DNA from: Acidobacteriota bacterium
GTDB lineage: Bacteria > Acidobacteriota > Blastocatellia > RBC074
Reading direction: 5' to 3'
DNA: 44,170 bases
Assembly: GCA_016196035.1 (NCBI GenBank)
Contig: JACPYM010000058.1
Coordinates: 1-44,170, forward strand
Shown: in pieces, positions 36,123 to 44,012 of the stretch
Numbering within the stretch: position 1 is the stretch's first letter
Layout: the number at the start of each line of letters is the position of its first letter
The notes under the pieces: generated by a model
Told to the model about the DNA's origin: nothing
What the model saw: the letters and a program-made list of their open reading frames with translations, nothing else
The model's database searches: none
Position numbers and translations under genes: made by a program

Positions 36123-36331
36123 TGTAATGTCTTTGGCGGGTGTTTTGAGGACTTTGCAAAAGCCCTGCTGGCAGCCTGCGGTACGGTCGAATAACTTTGG
36201 CATATCCGGACCGCCGACATATACTGCCGCGCGCCGACCTCACCGCGCGCACAGCAAGGCAGTCTTCCCCCAGGTTCCAGTTTGGAACGGAATCAAAATT
36301 CAGCGCCATGATCAGCGAGAGGATTTATCCG

Positions 36332-39300
36332 ATGAAACTCCGAAATCAATTTTCTTCCAAGTCAGTTCTCACCAGCCGCGCACAGTTGCACGTTGTTCAA
36401 TTCGGCGCGCTCGTCTGCGTCAATTTGCTCTTGTTCAGCGGGCTGAGTTTCATTGGCAATGCGCGTGGCTTCAGCGCGCCGTTTCAAACGCCAGCGGCGT
36501 TCAGTTCCCTGTCCGCCGCCAGTTTTGAAACTAACCTCACGCCCGAAGGCATCGCCGCCGGTTTTGGCAGCAATCTCGCACCGAGTACCGCATCGGCCAC
36601 CACCACGCCGCTGCCGACCACGCTCAACACGATTTCGGTGACGGTCAACGGTGTCAACGCGGGGTTGTTCTTTGTCTCATCAGGCCAGATCAACTATTTG
36701 ATCCCGGCGGGCACGGCGGCGGGTGAAGCAACCGTCAATGTCTTGCGTAGCGGCGTCATCACGCACACCGGCAAAGTGACCATCGTCAGCGCCGCACCCG
36801 CCATCTTCACCGCCAACTCCAACGGCACAGGCGTCCCCGCCGCCATCGTCTTGCGTGTGGCGACGAACGGCGCGCAAACCACCGAAACCATCGCCCAACT
36901 GGTCAGCAATCGCTGGCAAACCAAAGCCATCAACCTGGGGCCGACGGGCGAGCGCGTCTTTCTGATTTTGTTTCTCTGCGGCATTCGCGGCTTGCCTAAC
37001 AGCGATGGCAACAGCGGCAACGGCGTGGCCGAGAATGTGCGCGTGTTGATCGGTGGCATCGAACAGACACCGATATTCGCCAACAAACAGGGCGGCCTCG
37101 TGGGTGTAGATCAGATCAACGTCGAAATCCCGCGCGAATTGCTGGGGCGCGGCAAAATCAAAACCGCAGTGATTGGCGGCGGACTCTCTTCGCTCGAAGT
37201 CGAAATCGAAATCGCGGGCGCGACGGGCACGAACCCGCCGACCGTGACGAGTTTCGCGCCCACGCTCGCCACCGCAAGCGAAACACTCAACATCAACGGC
37301 GTCGGCTTTTCGACGGTGGCCGCGAACAACCTGGTGCGCGTCAATGGGCTGGAAACCTCGGTCGAATCGGCTGCGGCCACGCAATTGATCGTGCGTGTGC
37401 CTTACGGCGCGGAAGCCGGCCGCGTCATCGTGCGCACGACAACCGGCGAGGGTTCGAGCAACAGCGATGTCAGCGTGCGCACGACCATCAGCGGTCTCAC
37501 CACCGACACGAATGGAAATCCGCTGCCCGGCGTCGAAGTCAGCTATGGCGCATTCAAAACCACGACGCGCAATGACGGCACCTATCTGTTGCGCGATGTG
37601 CCCGCCGGTTTCGGCACGCTCAAAATTGACCCGTCAAAATTGTCACTGACCCCGGCGATGCAACCCTACAGCAAAATCGCCACGGCCACCGCCAACCGCG
37701 ACAACCTGCAAACCACCACCGCGCTGCAAACCGTCTCTGGCGAAGCCGCTTCGATTCAAACGCAAGGCAGCGGCGCGGCTGAAGAAGGCGACTTCACGCA
37801 ACACCGCCTGCTCGCGCCCAACGGCACGATCACGACCGGCAATGTGACATTCAGTTTTGACGACAACACGGTCGGCACCTTTCCCGCCGGTGTCACCGAT
37901 GGCCGCATTTACCTGACGGTGCTCACCAACAGCCGCACGCCGACGCCGCTGCCCGCCGGGATTTTCAGTTCGACCATTGCGCAACTTTCACCCATCGGCG
38001 TCAAACTCGCGCCGGGCGGCAAGCTGACGTTTCCCAACACCGACGGCTTGGCGGCGAATGCACAGGCGCGGCTTTACAAACTGGATCAAACCGCTGGCAG
38101 CCCGACGCTGGGCCAGTTCGTTGACGTAGGCGTCGCCACCGTTTCCGCCGACGGCCAGCGCGTCGAAACCGGCGCGAATGCGATCACCGAAACCAGCATC
38201 TATTTCGCCGCGCTCGCGCGTCCGCTGACCACCGTCACGGGCCGCGTGGTAGACAGCGATAACACAACGCCCGTGCGCCGCGCGCTGGTCACTTTGCGCG
38301 GGCAACAAACGTTCACGGATGGCAACGGCAGCTTTACGCTGCGCAACATTCCCGTCCCGGCCAATAACCTGCTGAACATCGAAGCCAGTTTCGTGCGACC
38401 AACTGGCCGTACCGACAGCGTGACGCGCAACAACATCGCCGTCGGCGCGAACGGGCTGACGCACATCACGCCCGACTTGGTGCTGCCTTCGCCAACGACG
38501 CAACCCAATCGTCCGCCGTCATTGATCGCGCCGACGCTGCTGACCGCTACCGAAGGCCAGACGCGCAACATCCCGCTGGTGGTGAGCGATCCTGATTCCG
38601 ATCAACCCGTGCAACTGGTTCTGACCAGCCCCAACTTCGTCACGCTGGTGCTCATTCAAAACATCGCCAACATACGCATCGCCCCGCCCGCAGGCTCGGC
38701 GGGAACGTATCCGCTGACCTTGAAGGCCACCGATAACCAGAACGCCGTCACGACGCTGAACGCCTCGCTCACCGTCACGGGCAATCGCGCGCCTGTGCTA
38801 TCCGTGCCGCTGGCGCAAACGGCCAGCGTTGGACAGCAACTCGCCTTCAACGTTTCGGCGTCAGACCCGGATGCGGATCAGACAGTAACGCTGATGGCAA
38901 CCAGTCTGCCCAGCGGCGCAAGCTTCGTGCAGACGAGCGCGACGACCGGGCGCTTTACCTGGACGCCCACCGCCAATCAAACCGGCCTGGCGACCGCGAC
39001 CTTCACGGCCACCGACAACGGCAGCCCAGTCATGACCGACCGCAAGTCAGTGGCGATCAACGTCGGCGGCGCAATTACGCAATGGGCGCAAACGGCGGGG
39101 CCAGAGGGCGCGGTGATCAGAGTTTTGTTGGTCAGCGGCAACAATTTCTTTGCCGGCACCGATGGCGGCGTCTTCCGTTCGGCCAATGATGGAGCCAGTT
39201 GGACGCCCGCCAACAACGGCTTGGCTGGCCAGTTCGTCTCAGCACTGACGACCAACGGGACGGCGTTGTTTGCGGGCACCTACGGAACCAGTCTGCTGGG

Positions 39301-40801
39301 CGGCGCTGGTATTTTCCGTTCGACCGACAACGGAGCGAATTGGACGCCCGCCAGTAACGGGTTGAGCACGCCGAATGTTTTCGCTTTGGGCGCGAGCGGC
39401 ACTACGGTGTTTGCGGGTCTGGTGTCCGGCGGGATTGCTCGCACCACCGACAACGGCGCGAATTGGGCCGCCACCGGCGCGGGGTTGAGCCAACAACTCG
39501 TCTACGCTTTTGCCGCGCTTGGCTCCAACGTCTTCGCGGGCACGCTGACAGGCGGCGTCTTCCGTTCAACTGACAATGGCACGAATTGGACAGCCGTCAA
39601 CACAGGGTTGACCTTTCCCTCGATTTCATCCTTCGCCGTCATCAACACGACGCTTTTTGCGGGCACCAATGGCGGCGGGGTTTTCCGTTCGACCGACAAT
39701 GGCGCGAACTGGACGGCGGTCAATGCGGGTTTGGGCATTCAGGCCATTTCCTCATTGGCCGTGAGCGGGACGACGCTCTATGCCGGATCGCAGGTGGGCG
39801 GCGTCTTCCGTTCGACCGACAACGGCGCGAATTGGTCGGCGGTCAACAACGGCCTGGCGAATCAGTTCATCAATGCGCTGGCCGCGCGCGGCACAGCCGT
39901 GGTCGCGGGCGCGAACAGCGGGGCTTTGCGCAGTGCCGATAGCGGCGCGAATTGGGCCGCCGCCAACACGGGCCTCAGCGGGCAATTCATTTTTGCGCTG
40001 GCCGTCAACGGCGCGAATCTGTTCGCCAGCACCTATAGCGGCGTCTTCCGCACGACGAACAACGGCGCGGCCTGGACGCTGGTCAACAACGGGCTGGGCA
40101 ATCGCATCATTCTGTCGTTGCTGGTGACGGGCACGACGCTCTATGCCGGCAGCGAAGGCGATGGCGTCTTCCGCACGACCGACAACGGCGCGAATTGGAC
40201 GCCCGCCAACAATGGCTTGCTGGATCGCGCGATTACGGGCTTGGCGATGAGCGGCAATACGTTATTCGCCGCGACGGCGGGCAGCGGGATTTATCGTTCG
40301 ACCGACAACGGCGCTACGTGGACGGGAGCGAATACAGGTTTGGGCAGCTTGAATATCCTGTCCATCGTCGCCAGCGGTAGTACGGTCTTTGTCGGCACCG
40401 ATCAAGCGGGCGTCTTCCGCTCCACCGACGGCGGCAACAATTGGGCGGCGGTGAATACGGGCCTCTCCAGCCTCACGGCCTATTCGCTGGGACTGAACGG
40501 CACGACGCTCTTTGTCGGCACCCCCACCGGCCTCTTCCGCAGCAGCGACAACGGCGCGACCTGGACGGCGGCCAACACCGGCCTCACCGGCGTGCTGGTG
40601 TCATCCTTTGCCGCCAGCGGTCAGAACCTGTTCGTCGGTTCAGCCTTTGGCGGCGTCTTCCGCTCAATCAATAACGGCGGACTCTGGACGCCTTTCAACG
40701 AAGGTCTCCCTAACCTCTTTGTCAAAGCCCTCGTCGTCAGCGGCAACAGCCTGGCGGCAGGCAATATCGGCAGTTCGGTGTTCACCCGGCCGTTGCCGTA
40801 A
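36332..40801 (+). CDS. Large exported surface protein: TIGR03437-like, TIG, Cna-like, Ig-like and 13 Asp-box repeats
   Basis: The 1489-residue product has a signal segment (about 25-48). A TIGR03437-like domain follows near the N-terminus (about 55-290; GQINYLIPAGTAAGEATVNV), an unusual position, since it is normally C-terminal. Then come an IPT/TIG domain (about 300-385), carboxypeptidase-regulatory-like domains (about 388-430 and 625-690), two Ig/cadherin-like domains (about 730-905) and thirteen repeats of about 41 residues (about 935-1475). Each repeat has an F-R-S-T-D-N-G-A-N-W Asp box, so they should form beta-propellers. The repeat section is also a DNA tandem repeat of about 123 bp (39150-40770). 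GAGAGGA upstream of 36332 sets the start. It has a related architecture to the protein at 8406, and likely acts on the cell surface. Confidence 0.87.
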   Translation: MKLRNQFSSKSVLTSRAQLHVVQFGALVCVNLLLFSGLSFIGNARGFSAPFQTPAAFSSLSAASFETNLTPEGIAAGFGSNLAPSTASATTTPLPTTLNTISVTVNGVNAGLFFVSSGQINYLIPAGTAAGEATVNVLRSGVITHTGKVTIVSAAPAIFTANSNGTGVPAAIVLRVATNGAQTTETIAQLVSNRWQTKAINLGPTGERVFLILFLCGIRGLPNSDGNSGNGVAENVRVLIGGIEQTPIFANKQGGLVGVDQINVEIPRELLGRGKIKTAVIGGGLSSLEVEIEIAGATGTNPPTVTSFAPTLATASETLNINGVGFSTVAANNLVRVNGLETSVESAAATQLIVRVPYGAEAGRVIVRTTTGEGSSNSDVSVRTTISGLTTDTNGNPLPGVEVSYGAFKTTTRNDGTYLLRDVPAGFGTLKIDPSKLSLTPAMQPYSKIATATANRDNLQTTTALQTVSGEAASIQTQGSGAAEEGDFTQHRLLAPNGTITTGNVTFSFDDNTVGTFPAGVTDGRIYLTVLTNSRTPTPLPAGIFSSTIAQLSPIGVKLAPGGKLTFPNTDGLAANAQARLYKLDQTAGSPTLGQFVDVGVATVSADGQRVETGANAITETSIYFAALARPLTTVTGRVVDSDNTTPVRRALVTLRGQQTFTDGNGSFTLRNIPVPANNLLNIEASFVRPTGRTDSVTRNNIAVGANGLTHITPDLVLPSPTTQPNRPPSLIAPTLLTATEGQTRNIPLVVSDPDSDQPVQLVLTSPNFVTLVLIQNIANIRIAPPAGSAGTYPLTLKATDNQNAVTTLNASLTVTGNRAPVLSVPLAQTASVGQQLAFNVSASDPDADQTVTLMATSLPSGASFVQTSATTGRFTWTPTANQTGLATATFTATDNGSPVMTDRKSVAINVGGAITQWAQTAGPEGAVIRVLLVSGNNFFAGTDGGVFRSANDGASWTPANNGLAGQFVSALTTNGTALFAGTYGTSLLGGAGIFRSTDNGANWTPASNGLSTPNVFALGASGTTVFAGLVSGGIARTTDNGANWAATGAGLSQQLVYAFAALGSNVFAGTLTGGVFRSTDNGTNWTAVNTGLTFPSISSFAVINTTLFAGTNGGGVFRSTDNGANWTAVNAGLGIQAISSLAVSGTTLYAGSQVGGVFRSTDNGANWSAVNNGLANQFINALAARGTAVVAGANSGALRSADSGANWAAANTGLSGQFIFALAVNGANLFASTYSGVFRTTNNGAAWTLVNNGLGNRIILSLLVTGTTLYAGSEGDGVFRTTDNGANWTPANNGLLDRAITGLAMSGNTLFAATAGSGIYRSTDNGATWTGANTGLGSLNILSIVASGSTVFVGTDQAGVFRSTDGGNNWAAVNTGLSSLTAYSLGLNGTTLFVGTPTGLFRSSDNGATWTAANTGLTGVLVSSFAASGQNLFVGSAFGGVFRSINNGGLWTPFNEGLPNLFVKALVVSGNSLAAGNIGSSVFTRPLP

Positions 40802-41045: not shown

Positions 41046-42458
41046 TCAATTCTTGGCTAAATCCCGAAAGGGTTTGCTCCCTGTCGCCAGGATCACCCCC
41101 TGCTCATTGCGCAGTTCGTAACTGATGTTGCCTGTGGTATCGCCAGCCGGCGCTAGAAACGGCAACCGGCCTTGCTTGGTCGTCATGATCGCCTGTTTGG
41201 TATCGGACGTGCTGGCGGTGTGAATCGTCATGGCGATCATCCCCAAAGGCTCACGCGCCAGAATCTCGAATTCGATGGTGACATTCTCGGCGGTTTCCGC
41301 CACCTGGCGCACGATCACTTTGACATCCCCCGGCTGAACCGGGTCTTTTTTCGCGTCGGGGGCTGGCTCCGTTTCGGCGGGCGGATTGCCATCCTCGACT
41401 TTGCCGGTCGGATAGTTGGCCGTTTGAAGCACGCTCTTTTCGCCGGGCCGGGGCGGTCGTGGACGGCCGTCGTCTTCCTCAACTTGCTCGACGGGCACAT
41501 CGCCGGGTTGACCGATTGGATTCGGCGCGAGATTGCGCGGCGAGCGATTTTCGGCAATGACCTGTTGCCGCCCGCCTGACCCAAAAGCGCCATTCTGCGT
41601 CAACAACGGCGCGCCTTGTTCGTCGAGAATGGTCAGCAAATAGCTCTTGCCGCTGCCCTGGAGCGGAAATACCTGCTCTTGTCCCGGAGCGATTTCGATC
41701 TGCATCGCGGGTTGCGGGCGTTCCTGCTCGCCATCGCTGAGCGCCCATTTGACCGTGCCGCGAAACCGATAGCGGTTGTTGCGATTTTGCAGCGTCACCA
41801 GCAATTGACCGTCTTTGGCCTCGATGACGCCTTGCAGCATCGGCGGGGCAAATTCCTTGAAATCGTCGAGTTCGATTTCATCCTGATGTTTTTGTGTGGA
41901 AGCGGCGCCTGAAGTCTTGGCTGGCGGTGGAGCAATCAACTGTGCGGCGTCAGGCTCACGCAGCGGATCGCCGCTAATCAGATAATCTGTCCGAGGCGTC
42001 CCGCCGGCCTTTTTGCTGGCGACAGGAGTTGTCGCACGACTGGTTTCACCGCCTTTGCGTTCGCGCGGATTGGCGCGTTCGGTGAGCGCGTGTCCGCTCG
42101 CCCCCAGGGCTGCGCCGGGCGCTTCGTAGCGAAAAACGGTGTATTCGGAAATTAACTTGGCGAGCACGAGTTTGCGCCCGAATTCCGTGGCTTGTTGCGT
42201 GCTGGCAAATTGACCGCCGACGCGCACGCGGTAAAAGACGCCTTTGCCGCTCACTTCGCCTATCAACCAATACGCATGCAGGCCGCGCTCGCGCAACCCG
42301 CCGGTCAAAGCTTCGGCTTCGGCTCGCGTTTGCACCGCCGCCACCTGCACAGCGAATCCATTCTGCGCCTGCACACCGACTGCGACGCCAGCCCAGAGCG
42401 CCAAAGATAGACACAACCAGAGAGTTCGCACCAAAGCCATCATCACATTCTCACTCAT
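41046..42458 (-). CDS. SPOR-domain exported protein
   Basis: The 470-residue product has a signal peptide (about 8-32, ending VQAQ) and a SPOR domain right after it (about 34-110): GFAVQVAAVQTRAEAEAL, GVFYRVRVGGQF and ATEFGRKL. SPOR domains bind septal peptidoglycan lacking stem peptides, so a role in the cell envelope or division is likely. The rest has a Ser/Ala/Pro-rich linker, an Ig-like beta domain (about 205-300), a disordered acidic Pro-rich stretch (about 310-375) and a second beta domain (about 378-470). The start is uncertain among ATG codons at 42458, 42443 and 42440, since no strong ribosome site precedes any. Confidence 0.85.
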   Translation of the reverse strand: MSENVMMALVRTLWLCLSLALWAGVAVGVQAQNGFAVQVAAVQTRAEAEALTGGLRERGLHAYWLIGEVSGKGVFYRVRVGGQFASTQQATEFGRKLVLAKLISEYTVFRYEAPGAALGASGHALTERANPRERKGGETSRATTPVASKKAGGTPRTDYLISGDPLREPDAAQLIAPPPAKTSGAASTQKHQDEIELDDFKEFAPPMLQGVIEAKDGQLLVTLQNRNNRYRFRGTVKWALSDGEQERPQPAMQIEIAPGQEQVFPLQGSGKSYLLTILDEQGAPLLTQNGAFGSGGRQQVIAENRSPRNLAPNPIGQPGDVPVEQVEEDDGRPRPPRPGEKSVLQTANYPTGKVEDGNPPAETEPAPDAKKDPVQPGDVKVIVRQVAETAENVTIEFEILAREPLGMIAMTIHTASTSDTKQAIMTTKQGRLPFLAPAGDTTGNISYELRNEQGVILATGSKPFRDLAKN

Positions 42459-43039: not shown

Positions 43040-43657
43040 CTACGATTTCTTAGGCGCAGGTTTCGCGTCAGGTTTGGCCGCCGGTTTGGTTGGCGCCGCC
43101 GGAGCCGGAGCCGCCGGAGCAGGTGTGGCAGGCGGAGCCTTGACCATCTCGTTGCCAGCCGCTTCCCAAGCCATGTTGCCGCCCAGTAAGGCTCCCGCGT
43201 TCGTGAAGCCAGCTTTTTGCAAGAGCAGCGCCGCACGGGCGCTCGTGTGTTCGGACGGTCAGCTACAGTACGCAATAATGCGTTTGTCTTTGGGCAAATC
43301 TTTGAAATCGCCCTGTTCTAACCGCGACAACCCATGCTCAAGCGCGCCTTTGACGTGGGCAGCTTTATAAGCGTCAGGGCCGCGCACATCAATGATGATC
43401 GCTTTGCCGCTGTCAATAGCAGCTTTGGCTTCCGCCACTGGCACGCGCGGAATCGAATCTTCAGGGTTTTGCGCGGGGGCCGCCGCCGCCGCCGCCGCAG
43501 GCGCACTTTGAACTGCGCCATTCGCCGCTGGCAACGGACTGGCCACAGGCACCGTTCCGGGGGGTGACACAGCCGCTGTTGGTTGCTGGCAGGCCGTGCC
43601 CAACCCAGCCAGCAACGCCAAAAGTGCGCTGCGCGTTAGGAGGTTGAGTTTATCCAT
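43040..43657 (-). CDS. Rhodanese-domain lipoprotein, probable selenoprotein (Sec at residue 133)
   Basis: The gene reads as one 205-residue protein if the in-frame TGA at 43259-43261 is decoded as selenocysteine. Residues 1-23 form an export signal ending in Cys (AGLGTAC), probably a lipoprotein. An Ala/Pro-rich linker follows, then a rhodanese domain: IPRVPVAEAKAAID, AIIIDVRGPDAYKAAHVKGA, and the active loop AYCS-Sec-PSEHTSARAAL, followed by LLQKAGFTNAGALLGGNMAW. Downstream of the TGA the frame continues with normal family sequence to a TAG at 43040-43042, plus a Lys/Ala/Pro tail. In related rhodaneses the loop is C-x-C-P-x-E, so Sec replaces the second Cys. A hairpin of SECIS geometry lies at 43227-43243. 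Start 43657 has GAGGAA nine bases upstream; 43666 is an alternative. Otherwise the gene would be broken by a nonsense mutation. Confidence 0.82.
43227..43243 (-). promoter_or_regulatory. Candidate bacterial SECIS stem-loop
   Basis: On the minus strand, AGCGCC and GGCGCT form a perfect 6-bp stem closing a 5-base loop CGTGC. The loop begins 21 bases after the TGA and has a G as its second base. Bacterial SECIS elements are described as having an apical loop roughly 16-37 bases after UGA with a G among the first two loop bases, so this one fits. The stem is short, and the sequence also encodes conserved rhodanese residues. Confidence 0.6.
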
Positions 43658-44012
43658 AAGGTTCATTTCCTCAGCGTGATCCGCTCAGTAAAACTTGCGG
43701 GGTTCAGCGTTTGTTGGTTGTGCTGCGCTTTGCCTTGAACCGGTTCGCAGCCAGATGAGTGCTTGCACTGTTTGACCAATGCCAGCCGTAGTGTACACGA
43801 AGCCTTTAACAGCGACAATCCTGCGCCTGCCTCTCGTTAATCTTTGCGTTTGATTTTTGGCCCTCCCTTAGCGATGATGGCATGCCTGTGCCACTTCCCC
43901 CGCTTGTCCCGTTTGAAATGCTCGTGGTGCTCGGCTCCACCCTAACCCGTTCACATTTCATTGCACCGTTGCTTACCGGTAATGCCGTTAGCTTGTTATT
44001 TTGTATCCGAAC
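43658..44012. promoter_or_regulatory. Divergent intergenic region
   Basis: This 355-base gap lies between the minus-strand rhodanese gene and the plus-strand exported protein and should contain both promoters. I see a short palindrome GTGTACAC near 43793 and no long inverted repeat, unlike most gaps in this window. No clear promoter boxes could be assigned. Confidence 0.35.

Follow-up and report, generated by a model that had tools for sequence, protein, structure and literature searches.

Described rhodanese selenoproteins and the studied locus

Rhodanese selenoproteins with a Cys-x-Sec (CxU) motif are already in print, as rhodanese-like form 3 in the excerpted part of a 2026 review, whose table gives the family one line and one example accession (PMC13188914), and as form 2 of COG0607 in the excerpted part of another paper (PMC9312934). 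The same review excerpt lists other rhodanese selenoproteins, namely forms 1, 2, and 4 (motifs UxxS, UxxG, and UxxG, respectively) and TsoB, NF045694 (PMC13188914). Here we describe a minus-strand gene at positions 43040 to 43657 of a 44,170-nt stretch of DNA from an Acidobacteriota bacterium (the whole stretch analyzed, hereafter "the window"), which very likely encodes an exported selenocysteine (Sec) rhodanese lipoprotein. The best NCBIfam match of its product is NF041203 (rhodanese_LYCAU, "rhodanese-related (seleno)protein"), a model also matched by all 12 aligned orthologues, and the two share the Cys-x-Sec motif in the same place.

A single in-frame TGA in the rhodanese active loop

The gene, delimited from its frame and a Pfam match, encodes 205 residues with a predicted Sec at residue 133 and a TAG stop. 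Its frame, read from 43657 to 43040, contains a single in-frame TGA (43259 to 43261, minus strand), which is codon 133 of 205 and lies in the context IIAYCS-TGA-PSEHTSARAA, at position 3 of the active loop Tyr-Cys-Ser-TGA-Pro-Ser-Glu; on the basis of frame and homologue alignment we read it as Sec. Past the TGA, 72 further codons lead to the TAG (43042 to 43040), and the Pfam Rhodanese match (PF00581) covers residues 75 to 166 (E, 6.8e-15; 55.8 bits versus a gathering cutoff of 22.2, with codon 133 read as Cys) and therefore spans the TGA. An earlier reading made from the sequence alone (the sequence-only reading) had described one TGA in the active loop, followed by rhodanese sequence and a normal stop, and this description holds in both parts. 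Loop residue 1 is Cys131 (codon at 43265 to 43267, minus strand), the putative persulfide-bearing nucleophile by homologue alignment; of the 141 TGA-bearing domains, counted with duplicates, 140 have Cys at this position and the remaining one has Sec. The window protein thus has the Cys-x-Sec motif in its active loop, as YCS-TGA.

The start at 43657 is backed by the starts of orthologues and by a Shine-Dalgarno-like GAGGAA, read by eye, 9 nt 5′ of the ATG (43667 to 43672, minus strand). A promoter and terminator scan found no promoter-like sites and terminators at chance level; upstream context is cut here, the window ending 504 bases beyond the outermost ATG (43666, three codons upstream of the chosen start). 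Among plasmid records, none resembled the gene at the DNA level. From the outermost ATG the frame is open for 135 amino acids up to the TGA, which the standard bacterial code reads as a stop, and both facts would suit a pseudogene, or a short protein ending at residue 132, produced by a nonsense mutation or an assembly error; against that reading stand the homologues.

Selenocysteine and cysteine exchange at codon 133

Across 150 distinct homologous genes (identical open frames and rows under 69 to 70 bits dropped), codon 133 reads TGA 124 times, encodes Cys 25 times, and encodes Gly once. Ser, Trp, Arg, and Leu codons occur in none of the 150, and the lone Gly gene comes from a genome in which neither selA nor selB gave a hit. 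One criterion for recognizing selenoproteins is that the in-frame UGA falls at a position held by Cys or Sec in related proteins, and this is what we find. When duplicates are included, all fetched loci yield 176 domains (141 TGA, 30 Cys, 3 Gly, 1 Ser, and 1 gap), in which the Ser, the gap, one Cys, and two Gly belong to low-scoring rows of other rhodaneses. The comparison with homologues that the sequence-only reading had proposed therefore returns Sec or Cys and hardly anything else, and its argument that a random nonsense mutation would rarely strike this codon gains weight from the TGA shared by 124 of 150 genes.

Sequence past the TGA is also conserved in relatives, another check that the earlier reading had named. 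Downstream of the TGA, dN is below dS in close pairs (for example, L031/L034, with dN of 0 and dS of 0.31 over 16 codons). In the 14 usable pairs of 17, which are mutually nonindependent and cover a stretch of only 16 codons, dS is lower after the TGA than before it, as expected with an overlapping RNA element; the pairs left out were L065/L077 and L067/L077, in which the "before" segment is corrupted, probably by an indel, and L095/L102, in which dS is saturated. Because both the TGA and the downstream sequence are conserved, we rejected a pseudogene or an assembly error, whose probability we regard as vanishingly small.

Within the family-level group of the window (11 genomes), 9 of 12 aligned genes carry TGA and 3 carry Cys, so that TGA recurs in 8 of the 11 other aligned genes, including one (L029) from the same genus; one family member (G005) has selA and selB, and no orthologue was found in it. 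A scan of the phylum with a profile of the group matched 64 of 396 sampled genomes at an E value of 1e-18. Scanning named genomes with peptide patterns that left out the Sec position gave 96 relatives, and the best 80 of these 96, drawn from Acidobacteriota, Chloroflexota, one Poribacteria, and one "bacterium" record, comprise 78 TGA and 2 Cys genes, the nearest being Acidobacteria and Blastocatellia records (L086 to L093). Overall, the TGA genes come from Acidobacteriota and Chloroflexota, with a single record from Poribacteria.

A tree of 152 domains (124 TGA, 27 Cys, and 1 other), built from few columns and with many forks unresolved, calls for at least 18 Sec/Cys changes. On it the window gene groups with the Cys genes L030 and L032 (SH-aLRT, 95), so that the two residues interchange even between close relatives. 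The C-x-C-P-x-E subfamily that the earlier reading had named does exist, represented by L030, L032, and L037.

Two further loci are worth recording here. A Chloroflexi member of this rhodanese family (L154, 4938 to 5849, plus strand) has two in-frame TGAs, as Tyr-TGA-Thr-TGA, with the hairpin described below likewise behind them; both of its active-site thiols could be Sec, although this is one record and a sequencing error is possible. The Cys copy L063 (genome G096) keeps most of the stem of this hairpin, with C in place of U in the loop, and looks as if a Sec gene had turned Cys. Its gene also stands in the Pyrinomonas methylaliphatogenes K22 record (L108), and it carries a lipoprotein signal.

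Selenocysteine machinery in the source genome and its relatives

Encoding tRNA-Sec, SelA, SelB, and SelD is a second criterion for a selenoprotein, and the source genome (9.59 Mb in 139 contigs, 96.9% complete) encodes all four, so that the search for sel genes suggested in the sequence-only reading came out positive. The tRNA-Sec gene scored 66.9 bits versus a cutoff of 47 and is called SeC with anticodon TCA by ARAGORN, and the protein genes scored 363.7 bits (selB; cutoff, 242.25), 582.2 bits (selA; cutoff, 267.9), and 362.1 bits (selD, L024; cutoff, 125). A second hit over the tRNA-Sec cutoff in this genome (L002) is a tRNA-Ser by ARAGORN. Among 14 control genomes, curated cutoffs were passed by 5 for tRNA-Sec, 2 for selB, 1 for selA, and 2 for selD, and the tRNA model is therefore the least specific of the four. 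The selD gene of the source genome has an in-frame TGA of its own, in NCAG-TGA-ASKL, which we take to be the usual Sec/Cys site of SelD.

The machinery accompanies TGA across genomes. We found selB over its cutoff in 66 of 73 genomes searched and read the Sec column in 68 of the 73, leaving out G029, G108, G314, and G317, which are represented by lower-scoring rows, and G005, whose rhodaneses are all distant; further low-scoring rows of genomes already read, some of them with TGA, were also left out of the counts. Of 50 TGA-bearing genomes, 46 have selB over the cutoff and the other four have selA; these four (G001, G003, G007, and G065) are in 480, 1240, 1200, and 370 contigs, respectively, and their missing selB likely reflects gaps in fragmented assemblies. 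The genomes with neither selA nor selB carry Cys (G199 and G237) or Gly (G070) at the Sec column. In fifteen genomes that have selB, the genes read are all Cys copies, and the machinery therefore does not force Sec; at least two of these genomes (G095 and G268) hold a further row with a TGA.

The presence of this machinery also bears on whether a changed genetic code or a suppressor tRNA might have the TGA translated as Trp or Cys instead. Cys is indeed the alternative residue in homologues, as this explanation would have it, but the source genome encodes tRNA-Sec, SelA, SelB, and SelD, and in a relative (L033) TGA serves as the terminator of a homologous gene. The third argument against it comes from the RNA behind the codon.

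A candidate SECIS hairpin at a fixed place behind the UGA

Assigned from conservation and covariation, a candidate SECIS hairpin, AGCGCC-CGUGC-GGCGCU (43227 to 43243, minus strand), follows the UGA, with a 6-bp stem, a 5-nt loop that begins C-G-U and starts after 21 nt from the UGA, and a hairpin energy of −9.5 kcal/mol. The bacterial SECIS model of Zhang and Gladyshev, as excerpted from the review, has a loop of 3 to 9 nt with G in its first two bases, a stem of 4 to 16 bp, a spacing of 16 to 37 nt, and an energy of −7.5 or lower, and the window hairpin lies within all four constraints listed there (PMC13188914). In loop, stem, and spacing, 122 of the 124 TGA genes have a hairpin that fits this model at any place, as do 10 of the 25 Cys genes; when the loop must lie at +20 to +22, the counts become 120 and 1, respectively; a hairpin energy of −7.5 or lower is reached in 79 of 124 TGA genes versus 0 of 25 Cys genes. 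The energy of the 45-nt fold alone shows no clear difference between classes, with 113 of 124 TGA and 21 of 25 Cys genes at the published limit. In comparison with the bacterial SECIS consensus, the GCC-NGU of the window family is unusually constant: an alanine at codon +7 is spelled GCC in 121 of 123 TGA genes, as compared with 723 of the 2315 alanines in the rest of these genes, and the form NGT stands at codon +8 in 114 of the 124 TGA genes versus 3 of the 25 Cys genes.

Covariation was examined in 55 distinct sequences (the window and 54 TGA genes, each at least 6 bases apart), in which 86.4% of cells pair and five of the six pairs have changed on both sides. Two-sided changes occur in 23 cells, versus a mean of 6.8 in shuffled sets (0 of 500 shuffles as high) and 2 to 7 in slid controls; on the measure of further pair types, 28 of 500 shuffles did equally well. 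Pair 21:33, both of whose bases are at third codon positions, occurs as C-G in 34 of the 55 sequences and as U-A in 14, and a tree-aware test of it gave five agreeing versus zero opposing pairs (P = 0.0625, above 0.05), a result that is suggestive only. Relative to synonymous resampling, folding energy has a mean z of −0.48 in TGA genes and +0.61 in Cys genes; the window z is just −0.66, and energy alone would therefore have missed the element. Rfam at gathering score gave no match in the window, and around the gene only weak matches to unrelated families.

The comparison thus shows a putative SECIS hairpin directly behind the UGA that is conserved and covarying, and its fixed place goes with TGA, as 24 of the 25 Cys genes lack the hairpin at that place. 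Given this tie, the TGA stop in L033, and the Sec machinery, we rejected a changed genetic code, and recoding as any residue other than Sec is highly improbable. SelA, SelB, SelD, tRNA-Sec, and the hairpin would together recode UGA 133, and insertion of Sec there is, as judged from sequence comparison, almost certain. What the sequence-only reading had called a probable selenoprotein is hence supported by machinery, TGA/Cys homologues, and a covarying hairpin together, and of the four findings that it had named as refuting, the three looked for here did not turn up.

Export signal and rhodanese fold

The protein begins with a hydrophobic stretch and a lipobox-type Cys (LAGLGTAC-QQP; Cys23, codon at 43589 to 43591, minus strand), predicted to be the lipidated first residue of the mature protein. 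This Cys, residue 26 in the orthologue alignment when counted from the ATG three codons upstream, is shared by all 12 aligned orthologues. The textbook lipobox is L-[AS]-[GA]-C, from which the GTAC of the window box departs. A signal peptide with a lipobox Cys, the mark of a bacterial lipoprotein, is nevertheless apparent by prediction, and in the window group the predicted lipid anchor is accompanied by an Ala/Pro-rich spacer. A home-made pattern found a lipoprotein-type signal in 65 of 124 distinct TGA genes and 7 of 28 Cys genes, counts that miss likely lipoproteins (e.g., L098, L116, and L125) and may include wrong ones.

The rhodanese domain (residues 75 to 166; 43160 to 43435, minus strand) is defined by PF00581, an AlphaFold2 model, and rhodaneses in the PDB. 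The model, computed from 53 sequences of the window and the loci, reaches block-mean pLDDT values of 95 to 98 over residues 71 to 170 of the 208-residue version. A structure search with it returned 3tp9 as the best match (Z, 17.3; root mean square deviation, 1.6 Å over 105 residues) and GlpE, 1gmx, with a Z of 15.5. The search confirms a rhodanese fold for the predicted structure and adds nothing on function.

Gene neighborhood and possible role

Using a home-made frame caller, we surveyed the neighborhood of 81 loci, the window and the best 80 of 96 named relatives. The commonest neighbor is a long protein, an M3-type peptidase by eye, at 18 of 81 loci (17 upstream, 1 downstream), which names no substrate; a metal-transporting P-type ATPase, also named by eye, lies upstream in 6 of 81. 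Nothing decisive emerges, and the gene neighborhood points to no function. Elsewhere in the window are a 1534-residue frame with BNR repeats, IPT/TIG, and carboxypeptidase-regulatory domains (36197 to 40801, plus strand) and a 470-residue protein with a SPOR domain (41046 to 42458, minus strand). In one relative (L201), the Sec rhodanese domain appears to be fused behind a DedA-like membrane domain (Pfam VTT_dom plus Rhodanese), and L195 and L191 look alike by eye.

Our best guess is that the protein is an extracytoplasmic Cys-x-Sec persulfide or thiol reductase, a predicted role that rests on motif chemistry. After export by the signal peptide and lipidation at Cys23, Cys131, the usual rhodanese nucleophile, would accept sulfane sulfur or react with an oxidized thiol; Sec133, two residues on in the loop, would attack the Cys131 adduct to give a Cys131-Sec133 selenenylsulfide with release of sulfide or thiol; and an exported or envelope thiol partner would then reduce the pair. 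The enzyme would in this way act as an envelope persulfide/thiol reductase rather than as a plain sulfurtransferase. We consider the Cys-x-Sec redox-pair mechanism quite possible, if somewhat short of probable.

The main rival is peroxide-linked work, in which a thiol peroxidase or peroxiredoxin-recycling enzyme would attack with Sec133 and resolve with Cys131, with no persulfide role. Sec often serves peroxide chemistry, and a peroxiredoxin-like gene precedes the rhodanese gene on its strand, at a distance of 11 to 68 bp, in 10 of the best 80 of 96 named loci (L093, L115, L117, L119, L127, L137, L142, L145, L147, and L162), with an AhpC-TSA domain in both of the copies tested (L093 and L117) and an apparent signal peptide on that of L093. 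The link is, however, unseen in the other 70 named loci, which include L086 to L092 of the window group, some of these having little upstream sequence, and in the rhodanese fold the nucleophile stands where Cys131 is, a place taken by Cys131 and not by Sec133. We rate this alternative as rather unlikely.

The other rival is an ordinary sulfur or selenium transferase, in which a persulfide or selenopersulfide on Cys131 would be passed to an acceptor while Sec133 only tunes the loop. The Pfam rhodanese match would suit such an enzyme, as would the sulfurtransferases among the structure matches (for example, GlpE of E. coli, 1gmx), but position 133 is almost wholly Sec or Cys, which speaks for a chemical role, and we give this reading the same low credence as the peroxide-linked one. 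Returning to the reductase, we advance only tentatively, and as a doubtful generalization, that widespread extracytoplasmic, often lipid-anchored Sec rhodaneses of Acidobacteriota and Chloroflexota, which the curated model covers poorly, reduce envelope persulfides or thiols through a Cys-Sec pair, some of them with a peroxiredoxin partner. If true, selenium would be part of a surface sulfur-redox defense.

Comparison with known systems

Relative to NF041203, the window protein shares the Cys-x-Sec motif but scores only 72.7 bits versus the curated cutoff of 115, and we therefore class it as a lipid-anchored variant. None of the 53 members of alignment A4, which for the most part contain just the domain, reaches an E value of 2e-33, which is about the NF041203 cutoff. 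The model exceeds its cutoff in 1 of 396 sampled phylum genomes, and the L173 gene, a TGA copy, passes it at 118.5 bits; the wider family counted here thus includes NF041203-type proteins, which are a few of its TGA genes. The same family-level genomes also hold a second CxU/CxC rhodanese group, comprising L041, L043, and L044 (TGA) and L042 (Cys). Its members score close to or over the NF041203 cutoff (114.6, 119.1, 103.5, and 99.1 bits for L041, L042, L043, and L044, respectively), and L041, L043, and L044 have no lipobox by our home-made pattern, whereas the window group is predicted to be lipid anchored.

Forms 1, 2, and 4 and TsoB, as listed in the review excerpt, likewise have a rhodanese domain with Sec, but by the motifs given there their Sec starts the motif (UxxS or UxxG) or is doubled (UxxxxU) and is not second to a Cys (PMC13188914); the TsoB model NF045694 matches the window protein at just 12.5 bits. 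Single-domain rhodaneses of the Cys type (GlpE, PspE, YgaP, BH2092 [3nhv], and Alr3790 [3ilm]) resemble the window protein in fold and sequence, and BH2092, the sole such alignment read at the Sec position, has Gly there.

The sequence-only reading had held that an exported, lipid-anchored selenium rhodanese would be unusual, a claim that stands only in part. CxU rhodanese selenoproteins are already catalogued in the excerpted sources (PMC13188914, PMC9312934), and a lipoprotein-type signal by our home-made pattern is found in 65 of the 124 distinct TGA genes. A search of an open-access library gave no description of the lipid-anchored form. The CxU family is much broader than printed, reaching 64 of 396 sampled phylum genomes and 124 distinct TGA genes, and those outside model coverage would likely be annotated as truncated proteins or pseudogenes. 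With its near-constant SECIS and at least 18 Sec/Cys changes, the set is good material on what Sec adds to a rhodanese. The finding is real and of a known kind, and what is new is the breadth of these relatives of the printed CxU rhodaneses and their predicted location in the envelope.
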